A DNA stretch of 41,828 nt from positions 1 to 41,828 of the forward strand of contig JAGBNF010000002.1 in the NCBI GenBank assembly GCA_017634555.1. The letters are read 5' to 3'. Within the stretch, counting starts at the first letter, position 1; every line of letters begins with the position of its first letter. This DNA comes from Eubacterium sp. (GTDB taxonomy: Bacteria; Bacillota; Clostridia; Lachnospirales; Lachnospiraceae). Below the pieces are notes generated by a model. It made no database searches and was not told where the DNA came from. It saw only the letters and a list, made by a program, of their open reading frames with translations. This document shows, in pieces, positions 1 through 38,351 of this stretch. Made by a program: the position numbers and the translations under genes.

Positions 1-63
1 AGCCAAGTGGTAAGGCGTGGGACTGCAACTCCCTGATCATCGGTTCGAATCCGTTAGTCGCCT
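1..63 (+). tRNA. tRNA-Cys (anticodon GCA), 5' end cut by the window
   Basis: The anticodon loop C-T-GCA-A-C lies at 23-29 inside a stem made by 18-22 and 30-34. The T-loop TTCGAAT lies at 44-50. The 3' acceptor strand AGTCGCC (56-62) is followed by T63, the U discriminator typical of tRNA-Cys. CCA is not encoded. The 5' acceptor strand and the first D-arm bases lie before the window. Confidence 0.9.
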
Positions 64-70
64 CTCATGA

Positions 71-106
71 ACGCCAAAACAGAGAAATCTGTTTTGGCGT
101 ATTTTT
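71..106 (+). terminator. intrinsic terminator after tRNA-Cys
   Basis: A perfect 12-bp inverted repeat (71-82 with 89-100, arm ACGCCAAAACAG) has a 6-nt loop and is followed by ATTTTTC. It would end the tRNA transcript before the next gene. Confidence 0.9.
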
Positions 107-142
107 CAATTAAAAACTTTTTCTACGAAGGGCAGGGGGAAG

Positions 143-1078
143 ATGAAAGCAGGGAAGGTTTTGAAGAGCACATTTCTTAAACTGACGGTTATTTCGATAA
201 TCGCATTTGCGTTGATGTCGGGAAAGACTGCGCAGGCGGCGGGAACCATTCAGGTCGAATCATTAGATGAATTCTTTGACAAGCTGTCGGAGCAGATATA
301 CGACAGAGATGCCTACAGATATTACTCAACAAGTAATACGGACGTATCCAGCGAGTTCGTTAATTTCAAAATGCTGGATTATCAGATGCATTATCGGGAG
401 GACAAGCCGTTCCTCAGCGGATGCTATCTGTCTTATTACGTAAAGACACTTCATTTATCAATCTCAAAGCAGGGAACAAAGGTACTCATAGAGCTTCCTT
501 ATACAAAAGAAGAGATGGACGCACATTTCGCAAAGCTTGACAGACTGGCTGAGGAGCTGAAGGGAAAGGATGATTACGAGACAGTGCTAAACGTCCATGA
601 TTATCTGATCGAGAATTTCGAATACGATTCACGTATGGAAATGGGAAATCATACGGATATCGACGGCTTCAGAGATGGAGTTATGGTCTGCTCGGGATAT
701 GCGCTGGCGGCATATTATATTCTGAACAGTGATGGCATCAAGACTATGACGATTATGGGAAGCTCGGGAGACAATACTTCCGGGGAAATAGATCATATGT
801 GGAACATGGTCAAGCTGGACGATAGATGGTATAACCTCGACATTACCTGGGATGATATGGGCGGGGAGAAGAAGAGCTATGACTACTTCCTGAAGAGCGA
901 TGAAGATTTCGTAATGCATACAAGAGCTAAGGAGTATAACGGCGATAATTTCAGAATTCTTATCGCAGATGAGTCCTACAAGAATCCGGAAAGCTTCAGA
1001 AAACCACTCATCATATTGGTCATTGCTGCGGCTGCTGCATTTATTATTATTTTCTTAAGAAGAGATAACCGTTTGTGA
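143..1078 (+). CDS. membrane-anchored transglutaminase-like protein
   Basis: This 311-residue protein probably acts outside the membrane as a cysteine peptidase or transglutaminase-fold enzyme; the substrate is unknown. Residues 11-33 form a hydrophobic signal or anchor segment ending near A-Q-A-A. A second hydrophobic segment (about 287-304) followed by RRDNRL suggests a C-terminal membrane anchor; no LPXTG sorting signal is visible. The catalytic triad of the transglutaminase-like core is recognisable: Cys183 (MVCSGYA), His218 (DHMWNMV) and Asp233 (NLDITWDD). The start is supported by a GGGCAGGGGGA ribosome site just before ATG 143. It lies alone after the tRNA terminator, and a promoter for the next gene overlaps its stop codon, so it is probably monocistronic. 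The fold assignment is firm; the biological role is not. Confidence 0.85.
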   Translation: MKAGKVLKSTFLKLTVISIIAFALMSGKTAQAAGTIQVESLDEFFDKLSEQIYDRDAYRYYSTSNTDVSSEFVNFKMLDYQMHYREDKPFLSGCYLSYYVKTLHLSISKQGTKVLIELPYTKEEMDAHFAKLDRLAEELKGKDDYETVLNVHDYLIENFEYDSRMEMGNHTDIDGFRDGVMVCSGYALAAYYILNSDGIKTMTIMGSSGDNTSGEIDHMWNMVKLDDRWYNLDITWDDMGGEKKSYDYFLKSDEDFVMHTRAKEYNGDNFRILIADESYKNPESFRKPLIILVIAAAAAFIIIFLRRDNRL

Positions 1079-6613: not shown

Positions 6614-7243
6614 GTTTTTATAATAGAATATTGCAAGATTGGTCCTGTCGCGGAGACCGAGCTTGCTGAGAACAGTGCTGATATAATTGCGGACGGTTCC
6701 TTCCGAGAGGAAGAGCTTGTCCGCGATTTCTTTGTTTGAAAGACCGTCAGCCACACATTTTACAATCTCTGATTCCTGATCGGTGAGGCCGAAGCCTTCA
6801 TAGTCGAAGCCTGCTGCAGCACCTGTGGAGGCCTGCTCCGTGCGGGAGAGTATCTTCTCTGTAACTTCGCTTCCGAAGACGGTCTGTCCGCCGTAGACGG
6901 CCTTCAGAGAAGGCACGATGGAGTCGAAGTCCTGCTTTATGATGTAGCCCTTTGCACCCATGGAAAGAGCCTTGATTATATATTCATCGTCGTTGAAGGT
7001 AGTGAGATAGAGAATCTTCGCATCCGGGAACTCAGAAAGGATTGCCTCGCCTGCTGCAAGACCTGTCATGCCTTCCATTCTGATGTCGGTGAGAAGAATG
7101 TCGGGACGAAGCTCCCTGTAAAGGCTGACCGCTTCTTCGCCGCTGCCGGCAACAGCCAGAACCTCCATGCCTTCTTCACTTTCTATGATTGTTTTGAGCG
7201 AAACCGCTACAAGGCGGTCATCATCGACTACGATTATCTTCAT
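6608..7243 (-). CDS. NarL/LuxR-family response regulator
   Basis: Two-component regulator of 211 residues. The receiver domain (1-120) has acidic pocket residues DDD at 7-9, phospho-acceptor Asp53 (LLTDIRM) and a conserved Lys near 105. A LuxR-type helix-turn-helix follows at about 150-205 (GLTDQESEIVKCVADG ... SNKEIA). The ribosome site AAAGGT precedes the start. It is the second gene after the histidine kinase on the minus strand (113-bp gap) and almost certainly its partner. Facing the ABC-2 exporter suggests it senses and controls export or envelope stress, like LiaSR- or DesKR-type pairs. That link is inferred from position. Confidence 0.92.
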   Translation of the reverse strand: MKIIVVDDDRLVAVSLKTIIESEEGMEVLAVAGSGEEAVSLYRELRPDILLTDIRMEGMTGLAAGEAILSEFPDAKILYLTTFNDDEYIIKALSMGAKGYIIKQDFDSIVPSLKAVYGGQTVFGSEVTEKILSRTEQASTGAAAGFDYEGFGLTDQESEIVKCVADGLSNKEIADKLFLSEGTVRNYISTVLSKLGLRDRTNLAIFYYKNL

Positions 7244-7356
7244 GTCTCGTTACCTTTCGTATATTATCTGTAAATATATTTGTCAATCCTGCATAGCGTA
7301 TCGATACTATATCTGTATATTAGATACGGATTGATCCGTTCCCGAAGGGATTCTTT

Positions 7357-8508
7357 CTAAGAAATCGGAATCGTGATAAACACACGGAATCCGTCGTCTG
7401 TTGTTATGCTGAGCTTACCGTTCAGGGATTCAACTCTCGAACGGATATTTGAAAGGCCGATGCCCTCTGAAGAAAACTCGGGAGCGGACTTGCCTTGTTT
7501 TTCCTTGTACGAAGAACTGTCGCTGTTCGGGTTATAATCGTGCACTACCATCTGATACATGGACGGATGCTCTATCACCTTGATATCAACCATGGGATTG
7601 GAGCTGTGCTTATGTATGTTGGTTATGCATTCCCTGGCAATGCCGAGGATTGCGTACTTGGTGTTGTGCGGCATGTCGTTTTCGATATCTATTTCAACAT
7701 TCACATTGAAGCGTCCGCTGTCACGCAGAAGATTTGCCATCTGATTTATACCGGCAGGAAGGTCTATGGACTCATCGTGCAGGTCATGAACGCTGCTTCT
7801 GATATTGTTCATTGCCGTATCCAGAGTTGAACGCAGGTCTGCAAGCTCGGTATGTACCGGCTCTTCCTTGTGGATCGCCAGCATGGCTCCGGTCTGCAGA
7901 AGAGCACGAGATAGCATGTGTCCCACGTTGTCGTGAATCTCACGTGCGATACGGTTACGCTCGGAAAGCTGCGCAGTATAGATCTCGTCGTCCTTTGCCT
8001 TTTCCAGCTTCAGATTCTGACTGAGAAGACGTTCGCTTTTCTCGGAGCTGTCGTCCCTGAGACGGTGAAAGCTTGTCGACATGACAGAGGCCATTTCACT
8101 TCTTATACAGAGATATATCGAAAGCACGGATATAAGCAGTATGAGAAGAAACATGGTGAGCGGCAGGCTTGAAAATCCGAGGATGAGGCCCATCACAGCC
8201 AGCGCGAGAGCTATATAATTACGGCTCTTTGTTATATCATACAGAAGATTCGGGATAGCCACTGCTGCCTGCGGAAAGATTATAATTGCGATCGCACCGA
8301 TTATCGTGATGACGAAGGAAAGCTTTTCGAGTAAGCCCTCCGGCTTCATGGAATAGTCTGATCGATTGCGTGTCAGAAGGTAATAATTTACCGCAGCAAG
8401 CGCAAGGGTAATATACATCACAATGATGAATTCCGTTCCCGAAAGCGTCTGATACATGACATAAAGCGTCAGCAAATATATTAAAATTTTATCTATTATC
8501 TTGCTCAT
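7357..8508 (-). CDS. NarL-type sensor histidine kinase
   Basis: Membrane kinase of 383 residues. About five hydrophobic helices fill residues 8-135, with very little extracellular sequence, so it is an intramembrane or transporter-coupled sensor rather than a ligand-binding ectodomain kinase. A dimerisation helix follows (about 145-185), then HisKA_3 with phospho-accepting His192 (REIHDNVGH). The HATPase domain has an N-box (IARECITNIHKHS) and a G-box (GIGLSNIRSRV). The family phosphorylates LuxR-type regulators, and the next gene is one. The start lacks a clear Shine-Dalgarno sequence: the GGGGAGG upstream is on the opposite strand. Confidence 0.9.
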   Translation of the reverse strand: MSKIIDKILIYLLTLYVMYQTLSGTEFIIVMYITLALAAVNYYLLTRNRSDYSMKPEGLLEKLSFVITIIGAIAIIIFPQAAVAIPNLLYDITKSRNYIALALAVMGLILGFSSLPLTMFLLILLISVLSIYLCIRSEMASVMSTSFHRLRDDSSEKSERLLSQNLKLEKAKDDEIYTAQLSERNRIAREIHDNVGHMLSRALLQTGAMLAIHKEEPVHTELADLRSTLDTAMNNIRSSVHDLHDESIDLPAGINQMANLLRDSGRFNVNVEIDIENDMPHNTKYAILGIARECITNIHKHSSNPMVDIKVIEHPSMYQMVVHDYNPNSDSSSYKEKQGKSAPEFSSEGIGLSNIRSRVESLNGKLSITTDDGFRVFITIPIS

Positions 8509-26296: not shown

Positions 26297-26971
26297 CTAC
26301 CTATATACTTCCCGATATAACTCGCATCCATACTCGATTACATCTGCATATTGGCTTTTTTGCTCATTTGTAATCTTTGCAGAATTAGCCTGAATGCTGT
26401 CAACAGTTCCATCATATGCTGCCCAACATAAAATCAATTGATTGTCATCTGATTCGATACAACAATCGACATCCTTTACACGAAAATCGGTTGCAAAACT
26501 AAGATAAGATGGCATCGATTGGTCGGGCAGTGTGAAATATGTATTCTCATCATATGGAATCTTATAGATATTGCCGTCAGTAACGGTATTGACTACCTCA
26601 TAGGAATACTTAGAGAGTCCCGCAGAAAACTTACCTTCTGATTTCGACTTATTATATCCCCATATACATAACCGGCTTAATGAAACAGCGGCAATTACAG
26701 CAGCTGCAGAAAGAAGAATCTTCTTGCTCCACTTTCCCCATTTGATAGCTTTGTTCATCTGTTTGGTGACCTTCGTATCACCCTTCAGCATGGTATCAAG
26801 AGATATGTCGAATTTATCACTGATATTTACAAGGGTAATAAGATCGGGATAACTCTTTTCATTTTCCCAATTAGACACAGTCTGTCTTGTCACATGAAAG
26901 AGCTCGGCAAAGTCATTCTGTGTAAGATTTTTTTCTTTTCTGATATCCTTGATAGTCTGACCTAATTCCAT
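26297..26971 (-). CDS. membrane-bound XRE-family transcriptional regulator
   Basis: A 224-residue protein. Residues 5-60 form an XRE helix-turn-helix (TQNDFAELFHVTRQTVSNWE). A single membrane helix follows at about 84-104, and then a roughly 110-residue outward-facing domain with several Cys and Tyr residues. This is the plan of a one-component membrane regulator. It lies 63 bp after the MacB-like permease on the same strand, so it may sense the transporter state or substrate and control this operon. A TACAAT -10-like element in the gap hints at an extra promoter. The ribosome site is weak. Confidence 0.85.
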   Translation of the reverse strand: MELGQTIKDIRKEKNLTQNDFAELFHVTRQTVSNWENEKSYPDLITLVNISDKFDISLDTMLKGDTKVTKQMNKAIKWGKWSKKILLSAAAVIAAVSLSRLCIWGYNKSKSEGKFSAGLSKYSYEVVNTVTDGNIYKIPYDENTYFTLPDQSMPSYLSFATDFRVKDVDCCIESDDNQLILCWAAYDGTVDSIQANSAKITNEQKSQYADVIEYGCELYREVYR

Positions 26972-27034: not shown

Positions 27035-29554
27035 CTATATCTGCGCACAAACATTTTCCCTGATGATCTTTCGAGCCGGTATATATACTGCTATCAGAGC
27101 AATCAATATATTCAGTGCCCCAATTCCAATAACAAAAGAAGAAGGTACTGTTGCGGTAAAATGCAGGAACTTCACCACATGTGCCATATAGTAATCCATA
27201 AATCGTCTTAGCAGAAGATTATAAATCAAAAATATGCAGATATCCGAAAGCACACCATATATAAGCCCCATCTTAAGAATGGTGATAAAATATGCCCTAT
27301 CGGTAATGCCTATGGCGCGCAGGATTCCATACTCTCTCTTACGGGACAAGATAGTGTAATTCATGCTGTTCATGATATGAAATAAACTGATTGCCAGTAA
27401 TATAACAGATATTGCCGAGAAGAAAATCTGCTGCTGATGTAAATAGTTTTTCTGAGTCTCGATGGCGGTAGTGTAATCATGAAGCACAGCTTTAGGTGTG
27501 TCTTGGATAATACTAAGAATATTCTTTACCGTTGTATCCGAGTCTGCACCATCTGAGAGGGATGCATTTATAAAACTATAATCCGTAATTCCAAACTCAC
27601 GCTCCATCCGATCATTGGTAAATATAACGCTCTGCATATTGCGCCAGGCTCCGTCGTTTAGGAAGCCACTCTCCTGAGACAAGGCACGGCTGACTATTGC
27701 GGCAATCTCATATTCCTTTTCCTCGGAGTGTTCATCCAGAGTTTTCAGTCTGATCTTATCCCCCGGATGTTTTCCGTATGAGTTGTAATTTCCCTGCCCA
27801 TCCATAAGAGCGACAAGGACTATCTTTCCTTCCGAGAGTTCTTCAGCATCAATACTGCCCTCCAGTACATAATCCTTCAAAATTTCCAGCTCTTTATCGT
27901 CATATCCATAGATATCATATTTTATGGAATAAGTCCGGTCCTCGTTCTTAGTTAAGATGCCACCGAATCTTTGATTGAAATATTCATGTTTATTCTGTTC
28001 ATCAAAGAATTCTTTCCATTTAAGTTCCGATTCATTTATCCTGATTTCTCCGACAGTAAACCTTACAGCATAGACATCCTCCAATTCCTTGATCGCCTTT
28101 ATATCCTCTACAACTTCAGGGGATATAGTATCGCTCAGATCATTTGATATAAGCGATATCTTATAGGTGGAGTTAAGCCCATCATCGGACTTCATAGACA
28201 TCTCAGCATGGATCTTCAGATTTTCCGTCAGATATGATGTACATAAAAAAAGACATCCACCAATAGATAGAGACAGCAGTATTCCAAAGGTTCTTCTTTT
28301 ACCTGAAAAGATAAACCGTCTGTTGATTATCGAAAGAAGGTTAGCTCGTCCTCTGCTATAAATTCTTCGAATATGTGATGTGTGGGAGTTATCGCCACTC
28401 ATTATCTGTCTTAAGGTAAGCCCTCTCATTCCTCTTATAGCTGAAAAAGAAATATATATAAGTGCCGTCATTAGAAAGATAAACCCGATAATCACGGCTT
28501 TACAGGAAATAAATAGTCCGGAAGAGTTCTGTGTATACCGATACCAGTATCTTAATGCTGCAGCCGCCGACAGAGTTCCCGCAGGATAACCGATGACATA
28601 AAGTATCAGAAGCTCTATATACATTAGGCATGCAACGGTTCCTTCGCTGATTCCCAGAGTCTGCATCACCGCATATTCAGCCCTTCTGCGGGAGATAGAA
28701 ATATTAAAAACACTGTATATTACCATCGTTCCGAATAAACTGAGAAGAATGATCATCGAATAGAATGACAGGTTATATTCATTTTGCAGTGTAAGTATTA
28801 TATATGTGAGATTTCCGTATTCGTTTGTTAATCCAAATCTGATGATATCGGTAATTCTTTCAGGTTTTTCTCCATTCAGATATTTGACCACTTCTTCATT
28901 TGGAGTAATGGCATCACTGTTGATTTTGTAGTCCCACTGAAATGAATCCAGCTGCTTATATAGCGCTTCTGTTTCATCAAACTTAATATATAGCAGTGGA
29001 TGACTCTCACTTCCGACATAATTCCTGCCTACAAAGATGTCCATCTTATCGGTATTTTCTGACCAAGAGCTCTTTAAGATTCCGGTGAGAATGTAGCTTT
29101 TACCATTTAATTGCAAAGTATCACCAATATCTCCGGTAAAGCCGAGATTATTTAGAGTATATATATCTGCAGCTATTTCATTTGATGCTGTAGGATAAGA
29201 ACCCTTCTTCAGATCTCGATGAGTCATACGAAGATATTCATCATCTGCATCCAGGAGACATATCTTATAATGGGTTGTGAGATAGCCCTTTATTTCCGCT
29301 TTTCCGAGAGCAGAAACAGCGTATCCATTTCCTTGAATTCCGGCTGTTATATCTTCATAGGTTTTCTCATTGACGGAAATGCAGTAATGCCAATCCCCAT
29401 ACATGGTTCTTTTATTTTCCAGATCATTCATCGCGCTGCTATACATCAAAGAGCCGATTCCTGTGATAAGAGCGGAAGTCAGGAATACACTTGCAAGAAT
29501 GGCAAAGGTCTGCTTTTTATAATATCTTATATACTGAAAAACCAGCTTTAACAT
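27035..29554 (-). CDS. FtsX/MacB-like ABC transporter permease
   Basis: An 839-residue permease with a duplicated FtsX plan: N-terminal helix (about 15-37), an extracellular domain (about 38-255), and three to four helices (about 260-390). A second helix follows (about 425-445), then a second extracellular domain (about 446-720) and a last block of three helices ending in PARKIIRENV. Members work as mechanotransmission exporters or peptide-sensing and detoxifying transporters (BceB, MacB, VexA types). Its start overlaps the ATPase gene end by 7 bp, so the two are translationally coupled. Confidence 0.9.
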   Translation of the reverse strand: MLKLVFQYIRYYKKQTFAILASVFLTSALITGIGSLMYSSAMNDLENKRTMYGDWHYCISVNEKTYEDITAGIQGNGYAVSALGKAEIKGYLTTHYKICLLDADDEYLRMTHRDLKKGSYPTASNEIAADIYTLNNLGFTGDIGDTLQLNGKSYILTGILKSSWSENTDKMDIFVGRNYVGSESHPLLYIKFDETEALYKQLDSFQWDYKINSDAITPNEEVVKYLNGEKPERITDIIRFGLTNEYGNLTYIILTLQNEYNLSFYSMIILLSLFGTMVIYSVFNISISRRRAEYAVMQTLGISEGTVACLMYIELLILYVIGYPAGTLSAAAALRYWYRYTQNSSGLFISCKAVIIGFIFLMTALIYISFSAIRGMRGLTLRQIMSGDNSHTSHIRRIYSRGRANLLSIINRRFIFSGKRRTFGILLSLSIGGCLFLCTSYLTENLKIHAEMSMKSDDGLNSTYKISLISNDLSDTISPEVVEDIKAIKELEDVYAVRFTVGEIRINESELKWKEFFDEQNKHEYFNQRFGGILTKNEDRTYSIKYDIYGYDDKELEILKDYVLEGSIDAEELSEGKIVLVALMDGQGNYNSYGKHPGDKIRLKTLDEHSEEKEYEIAAIVSRALSQESGFLNDGAWRNMQSVIFTNDRMEREFGITDYSFINASLSDGADSDTTVKNILSIIQDTPKAVLHDYTTAIETQKNYLHQQQIFFSAISVILLAISLFHIMNSMNYTILSRKREYGILRAIGITDRAYFITILKMGLIYGVLSDICIFLIYNLLLRRFMDYYMAHVVKFLHFTATVPSSFVIGIGALNILIALIAVYIPARKIIRENVCAQI

Positions 29555-30234
29555 AACTCATCCTCCATCTGAACCTGTCCGTCTTCGATACGGATCACTC
29601 TGTCGCATACCTTCGCCAAGGCATCATTATGAGTGACCATCAGAATCGTCTGATTAAATCTACGGTTGCTTTCCCTTAGCATATTCATTACTTCGTTTGT
29701 AGTGTTAGAATCCAGATTTCCGGTAGGTTCATCTGCCAGCAGGATTGCAGGTTTATTGACCAGGGCTCTTGCAATGGCTACCCTTTGCATCTGTCCGCCG
29801 GACAGCTCGCAGGGATAATTCTTTCTTTTATCCCATATTCCCAGTTCAGTCAGTAATTCTTTTATGTATCCATGGTTAATCTTCATTTTCCTGTCAAATG
29901 TGATCGGAAGTGCGACATTATCATAAACATTCAGGACAGGCATAAGACTATAGTTTTGAAATACGAAGCCAATATTTCTTCTTCTGTATTTTGTTAATTC
30001 TCTGTTCTTTAAAAGACTGATATCCTCATCCCTGACAAGTATCTGTCCCTTGGTAGGGGTATCAAGTCCCCCGATCAGATTAAGGAGTGTACTTTTTCCG
30101 GAACCACTGGTTCCTACAATTGCGACAAATTCTCCCTCATTCACATCAAGATTTATGTCCTTAAGTGCCGTTACTTTGTTTTCTTTTTGACCATATTCCT
30201 TTTCCAGATGATCAAGTTTTAAAATAGTTTTCAT
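29548..30234 (-). CDS. MacB/LolD-type ABC transporter ATP-binding protein
   Basis: A 228-residue ATPase. Walker A is GTSGSGKS (41-48), the Q-loop Gln is near 93 (VFQNYSL), the signature is LSGGQMQRV (144-152), Walker B is ILLADEP (about 164-170), and the switch His lies in MVTHND. The LolD-type N-terminus (ILKLDHLEKEYG) and the DEPTGNLD sequence put it with ATPases serving FtsX-like permeases. ATG 30234 has a perfect AAGGAGG; the open frame extends to 30333, but that stretch crosses the upstream repeats and has no ribosome site. Confidence 0.93.
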   Translation of the reverse strand: MKTILKLDHLEKEYGQKENKVTALKDINLDVNEGEFVAIVGTSGSGKSTLLNLIGGLDTPTKGQILVRDEDISLLKNRELTKYRRRNIGFVFQNYSLMPVLNVYDNVALPITFDRKMKINHGYIKELLTELGIWDKRKNYPCELSGGQMQRVAIARALVNKPAILLADEPTGNLDSNTTNEVMNMLRESNRRFNQTILMVTHNDALAKVCDRVIRIEDGQVQMEDELC

Positions 30235-30293
30235 GTTCGAATCCTCCTTGCCAACATCATGACAAGAGGTGGTGAGTACATCAAGCAATAGGG

Positions 30294-30344
30294 CTTTGCA
30301 CCGCCTAAAATACCGCGCAAATATTCTTTGCACCCCGTAAAATA
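30294..30344. repeat. two 19-bp direct repeats upstream of the MacB-like operon
   Basis: CTTTGCACCGCCTAAAATA (30294-30312) and CTTTGCACCCCGTAAAATA (30326-30344) differ at two positions. They are spaced 32 bp start to start, about three helical turns, so a bound protein would sit on the same face. They lie 60-110 bp upstream of the ATPase start, where an operator would be expected. Confidence 0.55.
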
Positions 30345-30408: not shown

Positions 30409-30438
30409 TTGACAGTCGATATTGGATTGTGGTAACTT
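30409..30438 (+). promoter_or_regulatory. predicted promoter of the T-box operon
   Basis: A consensus -35 TTGACA (30409-30414), an 18-bp spacer, and a weaker -10 TAACTT (30433-30438). Transcription would start near 30445, just before the T-box leader. Confidence 0.55.
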
Positions 30439-30469
30439 ATTTTCACGATTAATTTTATAAACATCAAAT

Positions 30470-30768
30470 GCGTTGATGGGGAATAGTAAGTGTAGAGGAT
30501 GCCTGCTGCAAACATGGTGATGCAGCGAAGAGAACTGTCGGGTGGTGCAAGACAGAGGATAGTCACACCGAACTCGCCCTTGAGCAGATCGGGTGAAATA
30601 ACAGTAGTCCGATTCGGAGCCCTACCGTTACAGAGGGAAGATATGAGTACTGTATGATCAGTTCCGTGTCGATGAGTGCGTGTGATGATAATTCACACGA
30701 AGTAGAGTGGTACCGCGTGATTCACGTCTCTACAAACCGTTGGTTTGTGGAGACGTTTTATTTTTTCC
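30470..30768 (+). promoter_or_regulatory. T-box riboswitch, leucine-specific (specifier CUC)
   Basis: The leader ends in AGAGTGGTACCGCG (30704-30717), one base from the T-box consensus; its UGGU bulge can pair with ACCA of an uncharged tRNA with A73, as in tRNA-Leu. Stem I shows AGTA (30485-30488) facing GAA before the specifier, and GTGT/ACAC pairing above it. Alignment with the glyQS T-box (GGTG.AAG...GGAT..G.CAC..C.GAA then the codon, then TTGAGCA) puts the specifier at 30573-30575, CTC, a leucine codon, followed by a purine. GTAGAG (30702-30707) can pair with CTCTAC (30728-30733) as antiterminator. An extra hairpin (GCTGC...GCAGC) lies in the distal part of stem I. Uncharged tRNA-Leu(GAG) should allow read-through. 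Confidence 0.92.
30724..30768 (+). terminator. T-box-controlled terminator
   Basis: A 15-bp stem (30724-30738 with 30742-30756; arm GTCTCTACAAACC) with a 3-nt loop runs into TTTATTTTTT. Its 5' arm contains the CTCTAC that the antiterminator uses, so the two forms exclude each other. Confidence 0.9.
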
Positions 30769-30803
30769 TATTGTGTTATAATATTTTTTAGAGGAGAAGC
30801 CAA

Positions 30804-32198
30804 ATGAGAAAAATTGATTATTCAGACAAGACGTTGAAGAATTCACGTATCGGGCTTAGCTTTCGTGAGAAAGTTGAGACTGCAAGGTATCTTGATCGTC
30901 TAGAAATCGAAGCTATTGAGTTACCGGTGATAGAAAATCTACAGGTTGACAGTCTGTTGGTTAAGTCCATTGCAGCAGCTCTCTCTAATGCTGTACTTAC
31001 CATAGATGTCGGTTGGACAGAAGAAGGAATAGATATAGCGTGGGCTGCAATAGAGAATGCACTGAAGAAGCGCCTGCAGGTCGTTATTCCTGTAAGTGTT
31101 GTACAGATGGAATATAAGGTTCATAAGAAGCCGCCTGTAGTTCTTACATTAATAGATACGCTTGTAAAGAAATGTAAGACTCTGTGTGATGATGTGGAAT
31201 TTGTAGCAGAAGATGCCACAAGAGCCGAAAGAGAATATCTTAAGGAAGCAATAGAGACAGCAATCAATGCCGGAGCAACCAAGATTACAGTAAATGATGA
31301 TGCGGGAACTATGATGCCTCCTGAATCTGCTGAATTTATCGGATATGTTAAGGAAATCGTAAACGGAAGAGCTGCTCTCGGAGCGGGAACATCCAATTCA
31401 CTTGGTATGGCTGATATATGTGCTGTTGAATCTGTAATTGCAGGAGCTGACAGACTTAGTGTTGCGGTTTACGGAGATTCGGCAGATATTCAGGGAGTTA
31501 CAAGGATACTTCTTGGATGTTCTGAAAAATGCGGAGCAGAACCAAATGTAAAGAATACGGAACTGCAGCGTAATTGTGATTTTATCTGCCGCATGAATGA
31601 TACTGATTATGATAAAAGAACTCCGTTTGATGCGGGAGTAAGAGCCAAGGATGAGTTTAATATCGGAGAGCTTGGAGTAGGTGATGACATCAGCGTTGTG
31701 GCTGAAGCGGTGAATAAGCTTGGTTATGACCTGTCCGAGGAAGATATGAAAAATGTTTATGAGAAGGTAAACAGAGAGGCTGCAAAGAAGAATATAACAG
31801 CAAGAGATCTGGATGCTATAGTTGCCAGTACAGCACTTCAGGTTCCGCCGACATATGAACTTGCAAGCTATGTAATTAATTCGGGAAATATAATATCTGC
31901 AACAGCTAATATTTCACTGAAGTATAATGGTGAAGTTTTATCGGGAGTGAGCATAGGAGACGGACCGATAGATGCTGCATTTCTCGCAATGGAAGGAATC
32001 ATAGGACATCATTATGAACTGGATGATTTTCAGATAGATGCTGTAACTGAAGGCAGAGAAGCATTAGGTGAAGCGCTGATACGTCTTCGCGCCGATAACG
32101 GAAGATTATATTCGGGAAGAGGAATATCAACGGATATAATCGGAGCAAGTATCAGAGGTTATATCAATGCGCTCAACAAGATCGTATATGAACAGTAA
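30804..32198 (+). CDS. LeuA-like protein with an intact regulatory domain but altered catalytic motifs
   Basis: A 464-residue protein related to 2-isopropylmalate synthase. The N-terminal HMGL-like TIM barrel (1-280) aligns along its length (DKTLK..., VEFVAEDATRAEREYL, INAGATKITVNDDAG). Where LeuA has T-L-R-D-G-E-Q, this protein has TLKNSRI (10-16). Where LeuA has the metal-binding H-T-H-D-D-L-G, it has GTSNSLG (195-201). Metal ligands and catalytic Arg thus appear missing. The C-terminal part (about 345-464) is a good LeuA allosteric domain (GDGPIDAAFLAMEG, AVTEGREALGEA, GRGISTDIIGAS, YINALN), which binds leucine in LeuA. RBS AGAGGAGA. First gene after a leucine T-box. It may be a leucine-sensing regulatory subunit or an enzyme with different chemistry; leuA function is doubtful. 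Confidence 0.82.
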   Translation: MRKIDYSDKTLKNSRIGLSFREKVETARYLDRLEIEAIELPVIENLQVDSLLVKSIAAALSNAVLTIDVGWTEEGIDIAWAAIENALKKRLQVVIPVSVVQMEYKVHKKPPVVLTLIDTLVKKCKTLCDDVEFVAEDATRAEREYLKEAIETAINAGATKITVNDDAGTMMPPESAEFIGYVKEIVNGRAALGAGTSNSLGMADICAVESVIAGADRLSVAVYGDSADIQGVTRILLGCSEKCGAEPNVKNTELQRNCDFICRMNDTDYDKRTPFDAGVRAKDEFNIGELGVGDDISVVAEAVNKLGYDLSEEDMKNVYEKVNREAAKKNITARDLDAIVASTALQVPPTYELASYVINSGNIISATANISLKYNGEVLSGVSIGDGPIDAAFLAMEGIIGHHYELDDFQIDAVTEGREALGEALIRLRADNGRLYSGRGISTDIIGASIRGYINALNKIVYEQ

Positions 32199-32217
32199 TA
32201 AGATTCGGAGGTAATAT

Positions 32218-34704
32218 ATGAGACTTTCATTTTCTACGCACGGCTGGTGCGATAAAGAGTGGGATTTTCTGGTTGAGTCAGCTGCAATCAACGGTATTTC
32301 AGGTATTGAAATAGCAAGTGAACAATGTGACGTATATTCACAAGACGGAGGTCCATTCCATAAATATAATATTACAGCGACTATCAGAGATTTAAGAGAA
32401 AAGGGTATTGCTGTGGCAGTGCTTAACTCGGGATGCGATATGGCATCCGCTGCCCTTTCCGTAAAGGCTGAGGAGGAAATCATTTCCAGAATAAAGCTTG
32501 CACAGTCCCTTTCTGTAAAGTATGTAATTTTATTCGGTGCTAAGGGTGGAAGCGTTGATATTTCCAGAAACGTGATAAGTAAGGTTCTTCCCGAAGCAAG
32601 AAAAAGGGGTATAACCCTTCTGGTAAAGACCAGCGGAATGTATTCAAATACAGCACTTCTGAAGGAACTGCTTGATGGATTTGCATGTGATGATCTTGGA
32701 GCAAGCTGGAATATATATGCTCCGTATCGTGAGTTTAATGAAGATCCGCAGACAACTATCCAGAATCTGGGTGCATATGTAAGACATGTACATGTATGTG
32801 ATTCCAAGGAATCCCATGGTGACTTAAAGCATGCACTTGTAGGTGAGGGAGATCTGCCTATACCTGAGATGATGACAGCTCTTGCTTCAATAAACTATGA
32901 TGGTTTCATGTCACTCAGATGGGATCCTTTATGGATTCCGGGACTTGATGATCTTGATGTTATTCTGACACATTATGCTGCAACAATGAGCAGATACGGA
33001 AATACAGCCAGAAAGAAATCACATCTTTATGATAACAGAAGTCATACAGGAAATTATATATGGAAGCACGATGACCTTATAGACCTGACCTTCGGTCAGC
33101 TGCTTGATAAGGTAGTTGAAGAGTTTCCGGATCAGCTGGCATTTAAGTATACAACATTGGATTATACAAAGACCTATAAGCAGTTCAGGGATGATGTTGA
33201 TAAATTTGCCAAGACTCTTCTTTCACTTGGAGTAAGACCGGGAAAGCAGGTTGCCATATGGGCAACGAACGTGCCTCAGTGGTTTATTACCTTCTGGGCA
33301 GTAACCAAGATAGGCGCTGTACTTGTTTCTGTAAATACAGCATATAAGATACATGAGATAGAATATCTGTTAAAGCAGAGTGATACCCATACACTGGTAA
33401 TGATAGACGGTTGGAGAGATTCGGACTACCTTGCGACCATGAAGGAGCTTTGTCCTGAGATGAATGATCTTAAACCGGGTGAACAGCTTCATTCCAAGAG
33501 ACTGCCTTTCCTTCGTAATATCATTACAGTAGACTGCAGACTTCCTGGATGTTTGACATGGGAGGAGTCGCTGCTTAGAGCAGACAGTGTTCCAAATGAG
33601 GAACTTCAGAGGTATGCCGCGTCCGTTGATAAAAATGATGTCTGCAACATGCAGTACACCAGCGGCACCACCGGATTTCCAAAGGGTGTAATGCTTACCC
33701 ATTATAATGTAGTAAATAACGGTAAATATATCGGAGATCATATGGATCTGTCTACAGCTGACCGTATGATGATACAGGTTCCTATGTTCCATTGCTTCGG
33801 AATGGTTCTTTCAATGACAGCGGGCATGACCCACGGAACAACTATATATCCGCTTCCGTATTTTTCACCAAAGCCTGCCCTTGAGTGTGTTCATAAGGAG
33901 AGAATTACGACCTTTAACGGTGTTCCGACCATGTTTATAGCAATGAGCCAGCATCCTGATTTTGAAAAGACTGATTTTTCATCTGTCAGAACCGGTATCA
34001 TGGCCGGATCCAACTGCCCTGCAGAACTTATGAAGAAGGTTTCCGAGATAATGAATATGAAGGAAATAGTAAGTGTTTATGGTCAGACCGAGTCAAGTCC
34101 GGGAGATACCATGAGCAGCTACTATGATCCGCTTGATGTTCGTACTGATACGGTAGGTTCGGCATTTGCAAATGTGGAATGCAAGATCGTAGATCCTGAA
34201 ACAGGAGAGGATTGTCCTGTAGGTGTTGACGGAGAATTCGTAGCAAGAGGTTATAATATCATGAAGGGATATTATAAGATGCCGAAAGCAACGGCAGAAA
34301 CCATTGATAAGGACGGATGGCTTCATACCGGAGATCTTGCTAAGATGGACGAGAACGGAAATTACTATATCACAGGACGTCTTAAGGATATGATAATCCG
34401 AGGCGGTGAAAATATCTATCCTAAGGAAATAGAAGAATTCATTTATACTCATCCGGGTGTAAAGGATGTACAGGTTATCGGAGTTCCGGACAAGAGAATG
34501 GGTGAGGAGATAATGGCCTGCATAATCTTAAAAGAGGATGCGACCGTTACCGTTGAGGAAATGAAGGAATTCATAACAGCCTCTATTGCTCGTCACAAGG
34601 TTCCGAGATATATTGAGTTCATGGATGAATTCCCAATGAATGCAGCAGGAAAGATTCTTAAATATAAAATGAGAGAAGATGCAGCAAAGCGCTTAGGCCT
34701 TTGA
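32218..34704 (+). CDS. TIM-barrel (xylose-isomerase-like) domain fused to an acyl-CoA synthetase
   Basis: An 828-residue two-domain protein. Residues 1 to about 260 resemble the sugar phosphate isomerase/epimerase or AP-endonuclease-2 TIM barrel (GISGIEIASE, HVHVCDS at 190-196, GEGDLPIPEM). Several expected metal ligands look replaced: LLVKTSG where an L-x-E-N is usual, and SWNIY where a catalytic Asp-x-GH is usual. From about 280 it is a full AMP-dependent acyl-CoA synthetase with P-loop YTSGTTGFPKG (480-490), YGQTESSPG, WLHTGDLA, GRLKDMIIRGGENIYPKEIE and catalytic Lys812 (NAAGKILKYK). The synthetase half is complete and probably active; the substrate is unknown. RBS CGGAGG; 19 bp after the LeuA-like gene, 36 bp before the oxidoreductase, no terminators between. 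Confidence 0.88.
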   Translation: MRLSFSTHGWCDKEWDFLVESAAINGISGIEIASEQCDVYSQDGGPFHKYNITATIRDLREKGIAVAVLNSGCDMASAALSVKAEEEIISRIKLAQSLSVKYVILFGAKGGSVDISRNVISKVLPEARKRGITLLVKTSGMYSNTALLKELLDGFACDDLGASWNIYAPYREFNEDPQTTIQNLGAYVRHVHVCDSKESHGDLKHALVGEGDLPIPEMMTALASINYDGFMSLRWDPLWIPGLDDLDVILTHYAATMSRYGNTARKKSHLYDNRSHTGNYIWKHDDLIDLTFGQLLDKVVEEFPDQLAFKYTTLDYTKTYKQFRDDVDKFAKTLLSLGVRPGKQVAIWATNVPQWFITFWAVTKIGAVLVSVNTAYKIHEIEYLLKQSDTHTLVMIDGWRDSDYLATMKELCPEMNDLKPGEQLHSKRLPFLRNIITVDCRLPGCLTWEESLLRADSVPNEELQRYAASVDKNDVCNMQYTSGTTGFPKGVMLTHYNVVNNGKYIGDHMDLSTADRMMIQVPMFHCFGMVLSMTAGMTHGTTIYPLPYFSPKPALECVHKERITTFNGVPTMFIAMSQHPDFEKTDFSSVRTGIMAGSNCPAELMKKVSEIMNMKEIVSVYGQTESSPGDTMSSYYDPLDVRTDTVGSAFANVECKIVDPETGEDCPVGVDGEFVARGYNIMKGYYKMPKATAETIDKDGWLHTGDLAKMDENGNYYITGRLKDMIIRGGENIYPKEIEEFIYTHPGVKDVQVIGVPDKRMGEEIMACIILKEDATVTVEEMKEFITASIARHKVPRYIEFMDEFPMNAAGKILKYKMREDAAKRLGL

Positions 34705-34740
34705 TGTAAAGTATTCGGAATAGAAAGAAGGGAAATATAA

Positions 34741-37700
34741 ATGTCTTTTAATGAATTTAAACCGGGTGAGATGGTTACAATGGATGGAAATGAGGCAGCA
34801 GCTTTTGTTGCATATCATTTCTCAGAGATAGCAGCAATATATCCGATAACTCCGTCGAGCCCTATGGCAGAATATACAGATGAGTGGTCCGCTAAAGGAA
34901 AACTGAACCGCTACGGACAGACTGTAAGTCTTGTTGAAATGCAGTCTGAAGCAGGTGCCATCGGTGCTGTTCACGGAGCAGTAACATCAGGTGCATTTGC
35001 TACAAGCTTTACAAGTTCACAGGGTCTTATGCTTATGATACCTGTGCTTCACAGAATTTCAGGAGAGAGACTCCCTGCAGTACTTCATGTTGCTGCCAGA
35101 ACAGTAGGAACTCACGGAATGAGTATATTCGGAGATCATTCCGATGTAATGAACTGTCGTCAGACCGGATTTGCTCAGCTCTGCTCATCTTCTGTTCAGG
35201 AGGTTATGGACATAGCAGCTGTTGCACATCTCGCTGCAGTGAAGTCTAGCATTCCGTTTATGCATTTCTTTGATGGATTCCGTACCAGTCATGAGCTGGC
35301 AAAGGTTGAAGTTATAGATTATGCTAAGCTTGACAGCTTGGTTGATGAGGATGCTGTAAGACGTTTCAGAGAGAATGCTCTTAATCCGGAGCATCCTATG
35401 CTTAGAAATACAGTACAGAACGGAGATGTATATTTCCAGACAAGAGAAGCAAATAATACGGATTATGCAAATCTTCCGGATGTTGTTGAATCTTATCTTG
35501 AAGGTATCTCAAAGATAACAGGAAGAGAGTATCACACATTTAATTATTACGGAGCACCTGACGCAGACAGAGTTATAGTGGCTATGGGTTCGGTTGCAGG
35601 CGCAATATGCGAGACTGTTGATGCTCTTAATGCGGCAGGAGAAAAGGTCGGATTCGTAAATGTACATCTGTATCGTCCGTTCTCAATTGAGCATTTCCTT
35701 AATGCAATGCCTAAGACTGTTAAGAAGATTGCAGTACTCGATCGTTGTAAGGAAATGGGAAGTGCAGGAGAGCCTCTTTACCAGGATGTCTGCACAGCAT
35801 ATACAAATAAAGAGTCTGATGTTGTAATTGTAGGTGGTAGATACGGTCTTTCATCCAAGGATACAAGACCTGACCATATAGCTGCTGTATATACAAATCT
35901 CAATCAGGATGAGCCAAAGAATTCATTTACAATCGGTATTGAGGATGATGTAACTCATCTCAGCCTTCCTATCGTGAAGGGCGCTGTAAAGAGACCAAAG
36001 CATATTACAGCATGTAAATTCTGGGGACTGGGAAGTGACGGAACAGTAGGTGCCAACAAGAACTCGGTTGACATCATTAATTCAGCAACAAATAAATATG
36101 CTCAGGCATATTTTGAATATGATGCAAAGAAATCTTTCGGTGTTACAAAGTCACATCTTAAGTTTTCGGATAAGCCTATTAAGGGAAGTTATCTTGTTCA
36201 CTCAGCAGATTTCGTTGCATGCTCAACTCAGCAGTTCATACTTGATTATGACATAGTAGATGATATCAAGGAGGGAGGAAGCTTCCTTCTTAATACAGGA
36301 TGGACTCCTGAAGAGCTGAATGTGATGCTTCCTGCTAAGGTTCGTCGTATTCTCGCTGAAAAGAATATAAACTTTTATACTATAGATGCTACAGCTATAG
36401 CTCTTGAGCTTGAGCTGGGCCAGCATACAAATGTCATACTTCAGGCAGCATTCTTTGCTATAGCCGATATAATACCGACTCAGGAAGCTGCTGAGTATAT
36501 GAAGGATGCCGTTAAGAAAACATATTTCAAAAAGGGTGAAACAATAGTAGGAAGAAATATCGCTGCTATTGAAAAAGGACTTAGCGGATTCACTAAGGTG
36601 GAAATTCCTGAAGACTGGAAAAATGCAGCAGATGAGGAGACTGATGCAGTTGATGACCGTCCGGATGTTGTTAAAAATATTCTGGAACCGCTTAACAAGC
36701 AGAAGGGTGATGAACTTCCGGTATCCGCATTTATCGACAGACAGAATGGTGCCATTGAAATGGGACTTACAGCATATGAGAAAAGAAATATTGCTGTTCA
36801 GGTTCCTGTATGGGATGCAACTAAATGTGTACAGTGTAACAGATGTTCCATGGTATGCTCACATGCAGTTTTAAGACCGTACCTTTTAAATGAGGAGGAA
36901 GCCAAGGCTGCTCCTGAAGAAGTTGTTATGGTCGATGCAAAGGGTAAGGGCGTTGAAGATATGAAATATACACTTCAGTGCAGTACCGCAGACTGTACCG
37001 GCTGCCAGAGCTGTGTAAACAACTGTCCTACCGGTGCACTTACTATGCAGCCTGTTCCTGAGGTTGATCTTACATCATGGAATTACTGTCTTGGTCTTGA
37101 TGATAAGCCGGACTTCTTTGATCCGTATTCAGTTAAGGGAAGCCAGTTCAGACGTCCGTTATTAGAGTTCTCGGCTGCATGTGCAGGTTGTGGTGAGACA
37201 GTATATGCAAAACTCATGACACAGCTTTTCGGAGATCGTTGTTACTGGGCAAACGGAACCGGATGTTCACAGGCATGGGGAGCACCAATGCCGGGAATTC
37301 CGTATACAGTTAATAAAAAGGGCCATGGCGTTGCATGGGGCAACAGCTTGTTTGAGAATAATGCCGAGTATAGTCTTGGTATGTATCTTGCTATAAAGCA
37401 GCAGAGAGAAACAGAGAAGCTTCGTACTGAAAAACTTCTTGAAGTAACAGAAAATGAAGCGCTTAAAGCAGCTGCTAATAACTGGATCAGTCTCTATGAT
37501 GATTTTGATGCTTCCGTAAAGGCAAGCGAGGACTATCTGGCTGCTTTGGAGGATGCTCTTAAGCAGGGATGCTCTAAAGAAGAATCAGATATCATTAATG
37601 AGATTCTTAAGGCAAAGGATCAGCTTACCAAGAAAACATTCTGGATGTATGGTGGAGATGGCTGGGCATATGATATCGGCTTCGGAGGTCTTGATCATGT

Positions 37701-38271
37701 AATAGCATCGGGTGAGGATATAAATGTATTCGTTATTGATACAGAAGTTTATTCCAATACCGGAGGACAGTCCAGTAAGGCTACACCTCTGGGCGCAGTT
37801 GCAAAGTTCGCATCCAGCGGTAAGAAATCACCAAAGAAGGATCTTGGATCGATGCTTATGACCTACGGAAATGTATATGTAGCACAGGTTGCCATGGGTG
37901 CAAGTCCGGAGCAGCTCCTTAAGGCATTTAAAGAGGCAATGGCTCACAAGGGACCATCTGTAATCGTTGCCTACACACCATGTACTGCACATGGAATGAA
38001 GTGTGGTATGGGCGGAGCTCAGCAGGAGATGAAGAGAGCGGTTCAGGCAGGCTACTGGCTGCTTTGGAGATACAATCCGGAAACAGGTGAAATGCATCTT
38101 GATTCTAAGGAACCGGATACACCGCTTGAGGAATTTCTTGACGGTGAAGTTCGTTATAATCTTCTTAAGAGAACATTCCCGGAGAATGCAAAAGAACTTT
38201 TCGAAAAGAGTACAGATAGAGCAAAAGAGAGATACGAGAAATTCCTTGGAATGTCCACGGACCATAAATAA
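34741..38271 (+). CDS. nifJ: pyruvate:ferredoxin (2-oxoacid) oxidoreductase, single chain
   Basis: A 1176-residue thiamine-diphosphate and iron-sulfur enzyme that interconverts a 2-oxoacid plus CoA with acyl-CoA, CO2 and reduced ferredoxin. Domain order is standard: domain I with YPITPSSPMAEY, domain II with AARTVGTHGMSIFGDHSD (the Arg that binds the pyruvate carboxylate in known structures is kept), and domain III/IV. Two 4Fe-4S sites follow (Cys696/699/702/706 and Cys752/755/758/762). The C-terminal ThDP domain has SAACAGCGETVYAK and GDGWAYDIGFGGLDH, and the proximal-cluster cysteine pattern continues in CTAHGMKCGMGG. It reads like pyruvate enzyme, but activity on branched 2-oxoacids cannot be excluded. 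It follows two genes behind a leucine T-box and ends at a terminator. AAGGGAAA ribosome site. Confidence 0.92.
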   Translation: MSFNEFKPGEMVTMDGNEAAAFVAYHFSEIAAIYPITPSSPMAEYTDEWSAKGKLNRYGQTVSLVEMQSEAGAIGAVHGAVTSGAFATSFTSSQGLMLMIPVLHRISGERLPAVLHVAARTVGTHGMSIFGDHSDVMNCRQTGFAQLCSSSVQEVMDIAAVAHLAAVKSSIPFMHFFDGFRTSHELAKVEVIDYAKLDSLVDEDAVRRFRENALNPEHPMLRNTVQNGDVYFQTREANNTDYANLPDVVESYLEGISKITGREYHTFNYYGAPDADRVIVAMGSVAGAICETVDALNAAGEKVGFVNVHLYRPFSIEHFLNAMPKTVKKIAVLDRCKEMGSAGEPLYQDVCTAYTNKESDVVIVGGRYGLSSKDTRPDHIAAVYTNLNQDEPKNSFTIGIEDDVTHLSLPIVKGAVKRPKHITACKFWGLGSDGTVGANKNSVDIINSATNKYAQAYFEYDAKKSFGVTKSHLKFSDKPIKGSYLVHSADFVACSTQQFILDYDIVDDIKEGGSFLLNTGWTPEELNVMLPAKVRRILAEKNINFYTIDATAIALELELGQHTNVILQAAFFAIADIIPTQEAAEYMKDAVKKTYFKKGETIVGRNIAAIEKGLSGFTKVEIPEDWKNAADEETDAVDDRPDVVKNILEPLNKQKGDELPVSAFIDRQNGAIEMGLTAYEKRNIAVQVPVWDATKCVQCNRCSMVCSHAVLRPYLLNEEEAKAAPEEVVMVDAKGKGVEDMKYTLQCSTADCTGCQSCVNNCPTGALTMQPVPEVDLTSWNYCLGLDDKPDFFDPYSVKGSQFRRPLLEFSAACAGCGETVYAKLMTQLFGDRCYWANGTGCSQAWGAPMPGIPYTVNKKGHGVAWGNSLFENNAEYSLGMYLAIKQQRETEKLRTEKLLEVTENEALKAAANNWISLYDDFDASVKASEDYLAALEDALKQGCSKEESDIINEILKAKDQLTKKTFWMYGGDGWAYDIGFGGLDHVIASGEDINVFVIDTEVYSNTGGQSSKATPLGAVAKFASSGKKSPKKDLGSMLMTYGNVYVAQVAMGASPEQLLKAFKEAMAHKGPSVIVAYTPCTAHGMKCGMGGAQQEMKRAVQAGYWLLWRYNPETGEMHLDSKEPDTPLEEFLDGEVRYNLLKRTFPENAKELFEKSTDRAKERYEKFLGMSTDHK

Positions 38272-38318
38272 AAAGAAAAGACCCGGCGGAGCATTGGTTT
38301 TGATTCGTTGATAGTATA

Positions 38319-38351
38319 GAACAGCCTGAAATATGGCTGTTCTTTTCTTTT
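38319..38351 (+). terminator. intrinsic terminator of the T-box operon
   Basis: GAACAGCC (38319-38326) pairs with GGCTGTTC (38335-38342), followed by TTTTCTTTT. Confidence 0.85.

Follow-up and report, generated by a model that had tools for sequence, protein, structure and literature searches.

A leucine T-box operon of a Eubacterium species that likely encodes the leucine arm of an isovalerate carboxylation pathway, with a LeuA-like protein as its probable sensor

The T-box leader and the three genes behind it

The window analysed here is a stretch of 41,828 nucleotides from Eubacterium sp. (Lachnospiraceae; assembly GCA_017634555.1, contig JAGBNF010000002.1, positions 1 to 41,828 of the forward strand). 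Its plus strand carries, behind a leucine T-box leader, three closely spaced genes, which code for a LeuA-like protein of 464 amino acids (aa) that we call LeuX (30804..32198), for a fusion of a TIM barrel to an acyl-CoA synthetase (828 aa, 32218..34704), and for a NifJ-type 2-oxoacid:ferredoxin oxidoreductase (OFOR) of 1176 aa (34741..38271). The leader, comprising stem I, the specifier loop and the T-box core (30464..30734, plus strand), matched the full RF00230 model (1-219) with 114.7 bits (E 8.3e-25; gathering score 93). Alignment to this model placed the specifier codon, CUC (Leu) followed by a purine, at 30573..30575, and the window letters together with the same alignment placed the core, AGAGUGGUACCGCG, at 30704..30717. 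The UGGU of this core would pair with an ACCA tRNA end carrying A73, which we take to be the base found in tRNA-Leu. A leader terminator with a 15-pair stem and a T run (30724..30756), which competes with the antiterminator, was present in the minimum-energy fold of the leader, and the leader folded 2.5 standard deviations better than 100 shuffled sequences.

The runner-up in strength among plus-strand terminators was located downstream of nifJ (38318..38343, 9-pair stem and T run), with weaker 7- and 5-pair sites within nifJ, and the gaps between the three open reading frames (ORFs) were only 19 and 36 bp. A probable plus-strand promoter, for which the evidence is weak, was noted at 30409..30438 (TTGACA at 30409-30414, an 18-nt spacer and the extended -10 element TGgTAACTT, with TAACTT at 30433-30438); judged by eye it fits a transcript start at about 30445, its -10 being below the threshold of our promoter scan. 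That scan, run on both strands, returned 17 promoter-like sites versus 20.8 expected and none inside the 36-bp gap before nifJ, and since the closest plus-strand sites (34369 and 34487) were weak and lay within the fusion gene, there was little to suggest that nifJ has a promoter of its own. An earlier reading of the letters without database searches (hereafter, the sequence-only reading) had proposed the T-box core, the CUC specifier, the terminator, the three close genes and the end terminator, all of which were confirmed by RF00230 and by the ORF and terminator scans; the single transcription unit that it had assumed also agrees with the outcome of the promoter scan. The operon should consequently be expected, as far as its leader can tell, to answer to leucine starvation.

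Related loci were taken as the best 80 of at least 581 named loci encoding LeuX, and their leaders were searched for with an nhmmer model which, because it was built from 8 seed Leu leaders, favours similar leaders; Ile and Val leaders were still matched by it. A leader was found upstream of LeuX in 63 of the 80 loci. One of these was truncated, and the 62 readable specifiers were CUC (37) or CUG (25) and none other. The alternation of two leucine codons, CUC and CUG, at one position among relatives makes the leucine reading strong, so that the leucine specificity assigned by the sequence-only reading stands both on the covariance alignment and on the related leaders. The bare T-box core motif occurred in 61 of the 80 loci, compared with a background of 0.07 per 600 bases in the same loci. 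The search for the same gene order that had been suggested in that reading was also productive, LeuX-fusion pairs being found behind Leu T-boxes, many of them with NifJ or VOR genes, in Lachnospiraceae and beyond. The LeuX leaders of six loci (L096, L134, L098, L135, L102 and L099) had the core UGGA (five) or UGGC (one), not UGGU, together with a CUG specifier, a combination which would require an unusual discriminator base in tRNA-Leu.

LeuX and its fusion partner

LeuA (2-isopropylmalate synthase) has a catalytic arginine, metal ligands provided by an aspartate and an HxH motif, and a LeuA_dimer domain that binds leucine. LeuX shows the same order of Pfam domains, HMGL-like followed by LeuA_dimer (PF08502, 107.6 bits), but failed the NCBIfam LeuA cut-offs, its best score being 260.9 bits versus 532, and five relatives failed them too. 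In comparison with four real LeuA proteins of the same family, LeuX is devoid of the metal-binding Asp, of both His, of the GERxGN loop and of the AHExGIHQxG segment. This loss is general: at the metal-ligand positions 13, 195 and 197, Asp was found in 0 of 51 LeuX sequences (one of the 52 rows has no residue at this position) and the two His in 0 and 0 of 52, while the motifs GERxG[ND], HxHN and H[ES]xGIH were absent from all 52 and present in the four real LeuA. With its metal-binding residues gone, LeuX is most unlikely to function as an isopropylmalate synthase and is very probably a dead enzyme. The designation "LeuA-like", given to it by the sequence-only reading, is thus correct as to homology and very probably fails if taken to mean a functional LeuA.

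The two parts of LeuX differ in conservation. Taking the window LeuX as the reference, the dimer domain was 60.5-73.6% identical to that of eight relatives, versus 33.2-43.6% for the HMGL part, and the mean majority fraction over the 52 sequences was 0.78 versus 0.60, respectively. The regulatory-domain motifs GDGP and SGxGxS[TS]D sit in the most conserved part of the protein. The conservation of the dimer domain and the pairing with the fusion described below incline us, if only modestly, towards LeuX being a leucine feedback sensor.

The fusion protein comprises an AP_endonuc_2 TIM barrel (about residues 1-270), which is xylose-isomerase-like according to Pfam and NCBIfam, and an AMP-forming acyl-CoA synthetase (Pfam; about residues 271-828) whose core motifs appeared intact by eye. 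Across the loci of the family, the synthetase half was 67-74% identical and the TIM half 29-41%. The fusion gene came directly after LeuX in 76 of the 80 loci, the contigs of the other 4 ending less than 1.8 kb from the LeuX start, and both genes often overlapped by 4 nt. The enzyme is probably an isovaleryl-CoA synthetase. In several loci an amidohydrolase gene was observed directly behind the fusion, namely L069 (13923-14762, PF04909), L108 (13897-14730), L103 (6662-7456) and L037 (4410-5240), the last three recognised by similarity or by their N-terminus; in L108 and L127, metY- and metA-like genes (by eye) followed the amidohydrolase of the leucine operon.

Oxidoreductases, aminotransferases and the classical leucine genes

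The NifJ-type protein scored 1671 bits against TIGR02176 (cut-off 911). In a tree of 27 NifJ sequences, 13 operon copies and 2 unlinked copies fell on one side of a 100/100 branch, and 12 others, taken from genomes of the same family, were placed apart. All 15 members of the operon clade have Gln844-Ala845, whereas the other NifJ have Ser at 844 in 12 of 12 and Ile at 845 in 10 of 12. Both residues follow a Cys that we presume to be an active-site residue, and they align with positions 842-843 (Ser842, Ile843) of the Desulfovibrio enzyme, in what we take to be its numbering. Operon NifJ is the same multidomain enzyme as NifJ pyruvate:ferredoxin oxidoreductase (PDB 6cin, 1b0p), but differs from it in forming a separate clade, in having Gln/Ala at the equivalents of Ser842/Ile843 and in being preceded by a leucine T-box. 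The smaller side chain at 845 could admit a branched substrate, and the operon enzyme is probably a reductive carboxylase of isovaleryl-CoA. The sequence-only reading, which offered no function for the operon, had regarded it as a catabolic enzyme of the pyruvate type whose control was unusual; the separate clade, the altered residues, the presence of a branched-chain aminotransferase (BCAT) in some operons and the absence of leuA, leuC and leuB from most carriers favour an anabolic branch instead.

OFOR and BCAT genes were searched for on the same strand in a range from 3 kb upstream to 12 kb downstream of LeuX. An OFOR was found at 33 of the 80 loci, 11 of them with NifJ and 22 with VOR and never with both together, and a BCAT at 21; in the 49 loci whose contigs extend 9 kb or more downstream, the corresponding figures were 27 and 15. 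Four BCAT that were checked scored 464-486 bits versus the NCBIfam cut-off of 307, and the VorB of L069 scored 549 bits (cut-off 399), VorA and VorC of this locus matching 2-oxoacid oxidoreductase families below cut-off. Synthetase, OFOR and BCAT genes were all present at one locus in L063, L069, L074, L076, L086, L104, L114 and others; in L074, L104, L076 and L114 the BCAT gene was located between the fusion and the OFOR, the order in L074 and L104 being LeuX, fusion, aminotransferase, NifJ. A protein of about 220-250 aa with a GHxGSGKT-like loop was often encoded just upstream of vorB (L069 17453-18115; L042 oriented 7061-7816), and the L069 copy had no Pfam match at 1e-6. One genome, G229 (contigs C52 and C46), had VOR genes behind the LeuX-fusion pair as well as an unlinked operon-clade NifJ. 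Behind the fusion of L102 (14077-18747) we observed an electron transfer flavoprotein (ETF) alpha gene, an ETF beta-like neighbour and a probable flavin dehydrogenase, the latter two by eye, which perhaps provide reduced ferredoxin by electron bifurcation.

A search of 250 genomes of the family to which the window belongs detected LeuX in 14, one of them the window genome. As controls we used 48 genomes without LeuX, taken as every fifth handle from G002 with the LeuX-positive ones skipped, and chosen after the TIGR00973 result was known. The cut-off of that model was passed by just 3 of the 250 family genomes and LeuX itself matches it, so that TIGR00973 alone is a poor test and NF002991 was used for leuA. 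By this means leuA was found in 3 of the 14 LeuX-positive genomes versus 47 of the 48 controls (Fisher p 8e-9), leuC in 2 versus 47, of which 39 were over the cut-off and 8 were long matches below it (p 5e-10), and leuB over the cut-off in 2 versus 45 (p 2e-8); the tests were also run on genomes at least 90% complete. There is, then, a strong association by which the isovalerate route would replace leuABCD, the genes examined being leuA, leuB and leuC. Matches to leuB below cut-off occurred in the LeuX-positive genomes G234 (250 and 199 bits) and G115 (140 bits), and in several of 32 further LeuX genomes considered below, where they reached 257 bits (G267).

The strong TIGR00973 matches of G092, G096 and G120 were discarded as leuA, being accounted for by LeuX itself. 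Another HMGL protein, some 460-480 aa long and found in G092, G096, G115, G120, G229 and the control G012, passed no LeuA cut-off; it lies near isocitrate-dehydrogenase-like genes in most of its genomes and is presumably Re-citrate synthase. G160, a congener of the window genome, had no LeuX match and a LeuA-family match of usual strength, and the control G167 had neither LeuX nor the isopropylmalate pathway. The closest named genomes were those of Lachnospiraceae bacterium strain LC2019 (L057; LeuX 99%, the three proteins 98-99%) and metagenome-assembled genomes (MAGs). The LC2019 genome is not marked as a MAG, and we assume the strain to be of rumen origin; according to the record titles, many LeuX loci come from ruminant rumen and hind-gut MAGs.

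Isoleucine and valine counterparts, the proposed pathway and its rivals

Many LeuX loci are adjoined by genes for synthetases with an XRE-cupin front, which have T-boxes of their own. We collected 62 such XRE-synthetase genes (e.g. L069 15121-17391, L085 14350, L092 463 and 3139); 17 of their leaders were unreadable and the 45 specifiers read were AUC (Ile) in 31 and GUA (11) or GUC (3) in the 14 assigned to Val, although it should be considered that the loose pattern fits other triplets too, so that a triplet was counted only with a conserved spacer motif after it, a rule set post hoc. Rfam confirmed the XRE-synthetase leaders in L123, L085 and L095. In a FastTree phylogeny, the 29 Ile and 14 Val synthetases that were long enough fell into two groups with no exception. 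Among 46 LeuX-positive genomes, ilvC was present in 3 of 34 with a full-length XRE-synthetase versus 6 of the 12 lacking one (p 0.005; counting two fragments raises this to 8 of 12, p 0.0002), and 10 LeuX-negative controls had ilvC in 9 and a full-length XRE-synthetase in 0. Both genes coexisted in G253, G256 and G275, and neither was found in G000, G251, G267 and G278; G000, G251 and G250 had synthetases lacking the XRE part, and the second copies met in this survey in G092, G252 and G258 contained stops. In six loci (L075, L081, L092, L094, L110 and L125) two XRE-synthetase genes came first, followed by vorBAC, BCAT, LeuX and the fusion, and no T-box was detected immediately upstream of LeuX; wherever their leaders could be read, the first XRE-synthetase had an Ile leader and the second a Val leader. 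In L033 two XRE-synthetases were located directly behind the fusion, and L085 carried a further T-box and a tetrahydrofolate (THF) riboswitch (38-263, minus strand, and 7597-7697). The XRE-synthetases probably represent the isoleucine and valine branches of this system, a pattern that fits the conversion of 2-methylbutyrate to isoleucine and of isobutyrate to valine.

On these grounds we propose that, on leucine shortage, binding of uncharged tRNA-Leu to the leader would switch on the three genes together. Isovalerate, supplied presumably by protein-fermenting neighbours, would be converted with ATP to isovaleryl-CoA by the synthetase half of the fusion, and the NifJ-type enzyme, running backwards, would combine isovaleryl-CoA, CO2 and reduced ferredoxin into 2-oxoisocaproate, which a BCAT encoded outside the window operon would turn into leucine, the whole substituting for leuABCD. 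With ample leucine the leader would terminate, and LeuX, probably leucine-bound and placed on or beside the synthetase, would restrain the route and so make up for the feedback that disappeared with LeuA. The pathway taken alone, from isovalerate through isovaleryl-CoA and 2-oxoisocaproate to leucine, is a reading that we hold with good confidence, its chemistry being deduced from enzyme family, gene context and gene loss; that the operon is the leucine arm of such a pathway with LeuX as the probable sensor is, likewise, likely. For the wider picture the scales are evenly balanced: gut and rumen Clostridia and Erysipelotrichaceae would have a three-armed, tRNA-gated synthesis of Leu, Ile and Val from isovalerate, 2-methylbutyrate and isobutyrate, each arm with its own synthetase and matching T-box and all sharing oxidoreductase and aminotransferase, which replaces the isopropylmalate and often the IlvC route and employs a dead LeuA as sensor, the window species having the leucine arm alone with a dedicated NifJ carboxylase.

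Several observations weigh against this interpretation. Concerning control, the leader was present at 9 of the 14 loci of the window's family that have the LeuX start, and at 17 of the 80 related loci no leader was found at LeuX; 8 of these 17 have VOR and BCAT genes directly upstream of LeuX, L089 offers just 290 upstream bases, in L103 a T-box lies some 1.6 kb upstream, and no T-box reached the Rfam gathering score in L060, L083, L106, L109, L112, L121 and L132. As to the enzymes, no OFOR was found within the search range at 22 of the 49 loci with sufficient downstream sequence, and there is no BCAT in the window operon, the rest of the window genome not having been searched for one. The equivalents of Thr31 and Arg114, residues which we understand to bind pyruvate in NifJ, are kept in the operon NifJ, and Ala at 845 is also found in 2 of the 12 other NifJ. 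Isovaleryl-CoA as the substrate is something we infer from the Leu T-box, OFOR and BCAT. With regard to gene loss, the p values overstate independence because the genomes are related, the window genome is 72% complete, and three LeuX-positive genomes (G175, G211 and G226) also have leuA, two of them together with leuC and leuB and G211 with leuA only. Of the 32 further LeuX genomes reached via named loci, the completeness of which is not stated, leuB passed the cut-off in two (G256 and G275), exceptions to a gene loss that the other 30 support; the 30 that failed it included LC2019, Neobittarella massiliensis and Erysipelotrichaceae NK3D112, none of them marked as a MAG.

On a catabolic reading the operon would ferment leucine, with 2-oxoisocaproate oxidised by the oxidoreductase, energy recovered by the synthetase and isovalerate as the product; the same enzyme families run this way in amino-acid fermenters, and NifJ is usually catabolic. 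We consider this highly improbable, as a T-box is on when tRNA-Leu is uncharged and leucine breakdown would make no sense, AMP-forming synthetases work in the direction of the CoA ester, and leuA, leuB and leuC are missing from most carriers. It is just as improbable that LeuX still functions as an acyltransferase, of the isopropylmalate or a related type, which uses new catalytic residues and feeds the normal leucine pathway: the HMGL fold and LeuA_dimer are kept, Asp8 and Thr10 are nearly invariant and the Arg of the first motif is retained in 14 of 52 sequences, but Asp and His at 13, 195 and 197 and the LeuA motifs are gone from the whole set, and 12 of the 14 genomes lack leuC and leuB, with which such an enzyme would have to work.

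The operon might alternatively supply isovaleryl-CoA to FabH for branched-chain membrane lipids when leucine, the usual source, is scarce. Such a role has a precedent in Staphylococcus aureus MbcS, described (PMC10026030) as activating 2-methylbutyrate and isobutyrate for lipids; MbcS likewise carries out an AMP-forming activation of external branched short acids, but, unlike the role proposed for the fusion, it supplies membrane lipids, is poor with isovalerate and is close to acetyl-CoA synthetases. A lipid function would account neither for the oxidoreductase and BCAT genes of these loci nor for the lack of leuA, leuB and leuC, and we judge it improbable. A somewhat doubtful but more serious possibility would keep the pathway and drop the feedback model: LeuX and the TIM barrel could serve as scaffolds, or their target could be some other metabolite than leucine. 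The putative catalytic positions of the TIM barrel differ between relatives (by eye), in agreement with this view, while the location of GDGP and SGxGxS[TS]D within the best conserved part of LeuX speaks for the sensor.

What is known of the isovalerate carboxylation pathway that we favour is its chemistry and, separately, the T-box switch; the genes, the type of regulator and the replaced pathway would be new. The work of Allison on this chemistry is said to have been tracer biochemistry. That leucine can arise by isovalerate carboxylation is stated, citing Allison's papers, in PMC7356843, whose reference list includes Allison, Bryant and Doetsch 1962 and Allison and others 1966 for this reaction in rumen bacteria, a 1962 title naming branched volatile acids as growth factors of ruminococci, and, by their titles, Robinson and Allison 1969 and Allison and Peel 1971 on the conversion of 2-methylbutyrate to isoleucine and of isobutyrate to valine in rumen anaerobes. 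The overall reaction proposed here is the same, isovalerate plus CO2 plus an amino group giving leucine, and here it is linked to genes, to control by tRNA, to a LeuA homologue that has lost its catalytic residues and to the lack of leuA, leuB and leuC. In the open-licence literature, judged by titles and the starts of abstracts, we found no gene assignment for an isovalerate (branched-acid) route to amino acids. The Bacillus subtilis ilv-leu operon reportedly encodes the classical leucine route, whereas the window operon appears to replace it. Both share a CUC Leu T-box on leucine-making genes (Marta and others 1996, from its title in PMC2494555), and the terms acyl-CoA and ferredoxin have no occurrence in the main text of this T-box survey (PMC2494555).

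If the proposal is true, dependence on isovalerate, 2-methylbutyrate or isobutyrate would be predictable from genomes, with a bearing on the isoacid feeding of ruminants and on gut cross-feeding, and genomes scored as leucine auxotrophs for missing leuABCD would be re-scored. It would also mean that a biosynthetic enzyme was stripped of catalysis and kept as the feedback sensor of another pathway to the same product, and that a catabolic-type NifJ was recruited to biosynthesis.

Of five further T-boxes elsewhere in the window genome, four precede thrS-, trpE-, pheS- and aspS-like genes (recognised by eye from their N-termini). The window itself begins with a 5'-truncated tRNA gene at the contig edge (1-63, 40.7 bits), and a second AMP-binding protein is encoded at 1153-2823, which did not reach the cut-off of any of the 25 NCBIfam families listed for it. 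Divergent from the operon, on the minus strand (27035-30333), lie genes for an ABC transporter ATPase and an FtsX-like permease, and beside them, at 26297-26971, is a gene for an XRE-type regulator.

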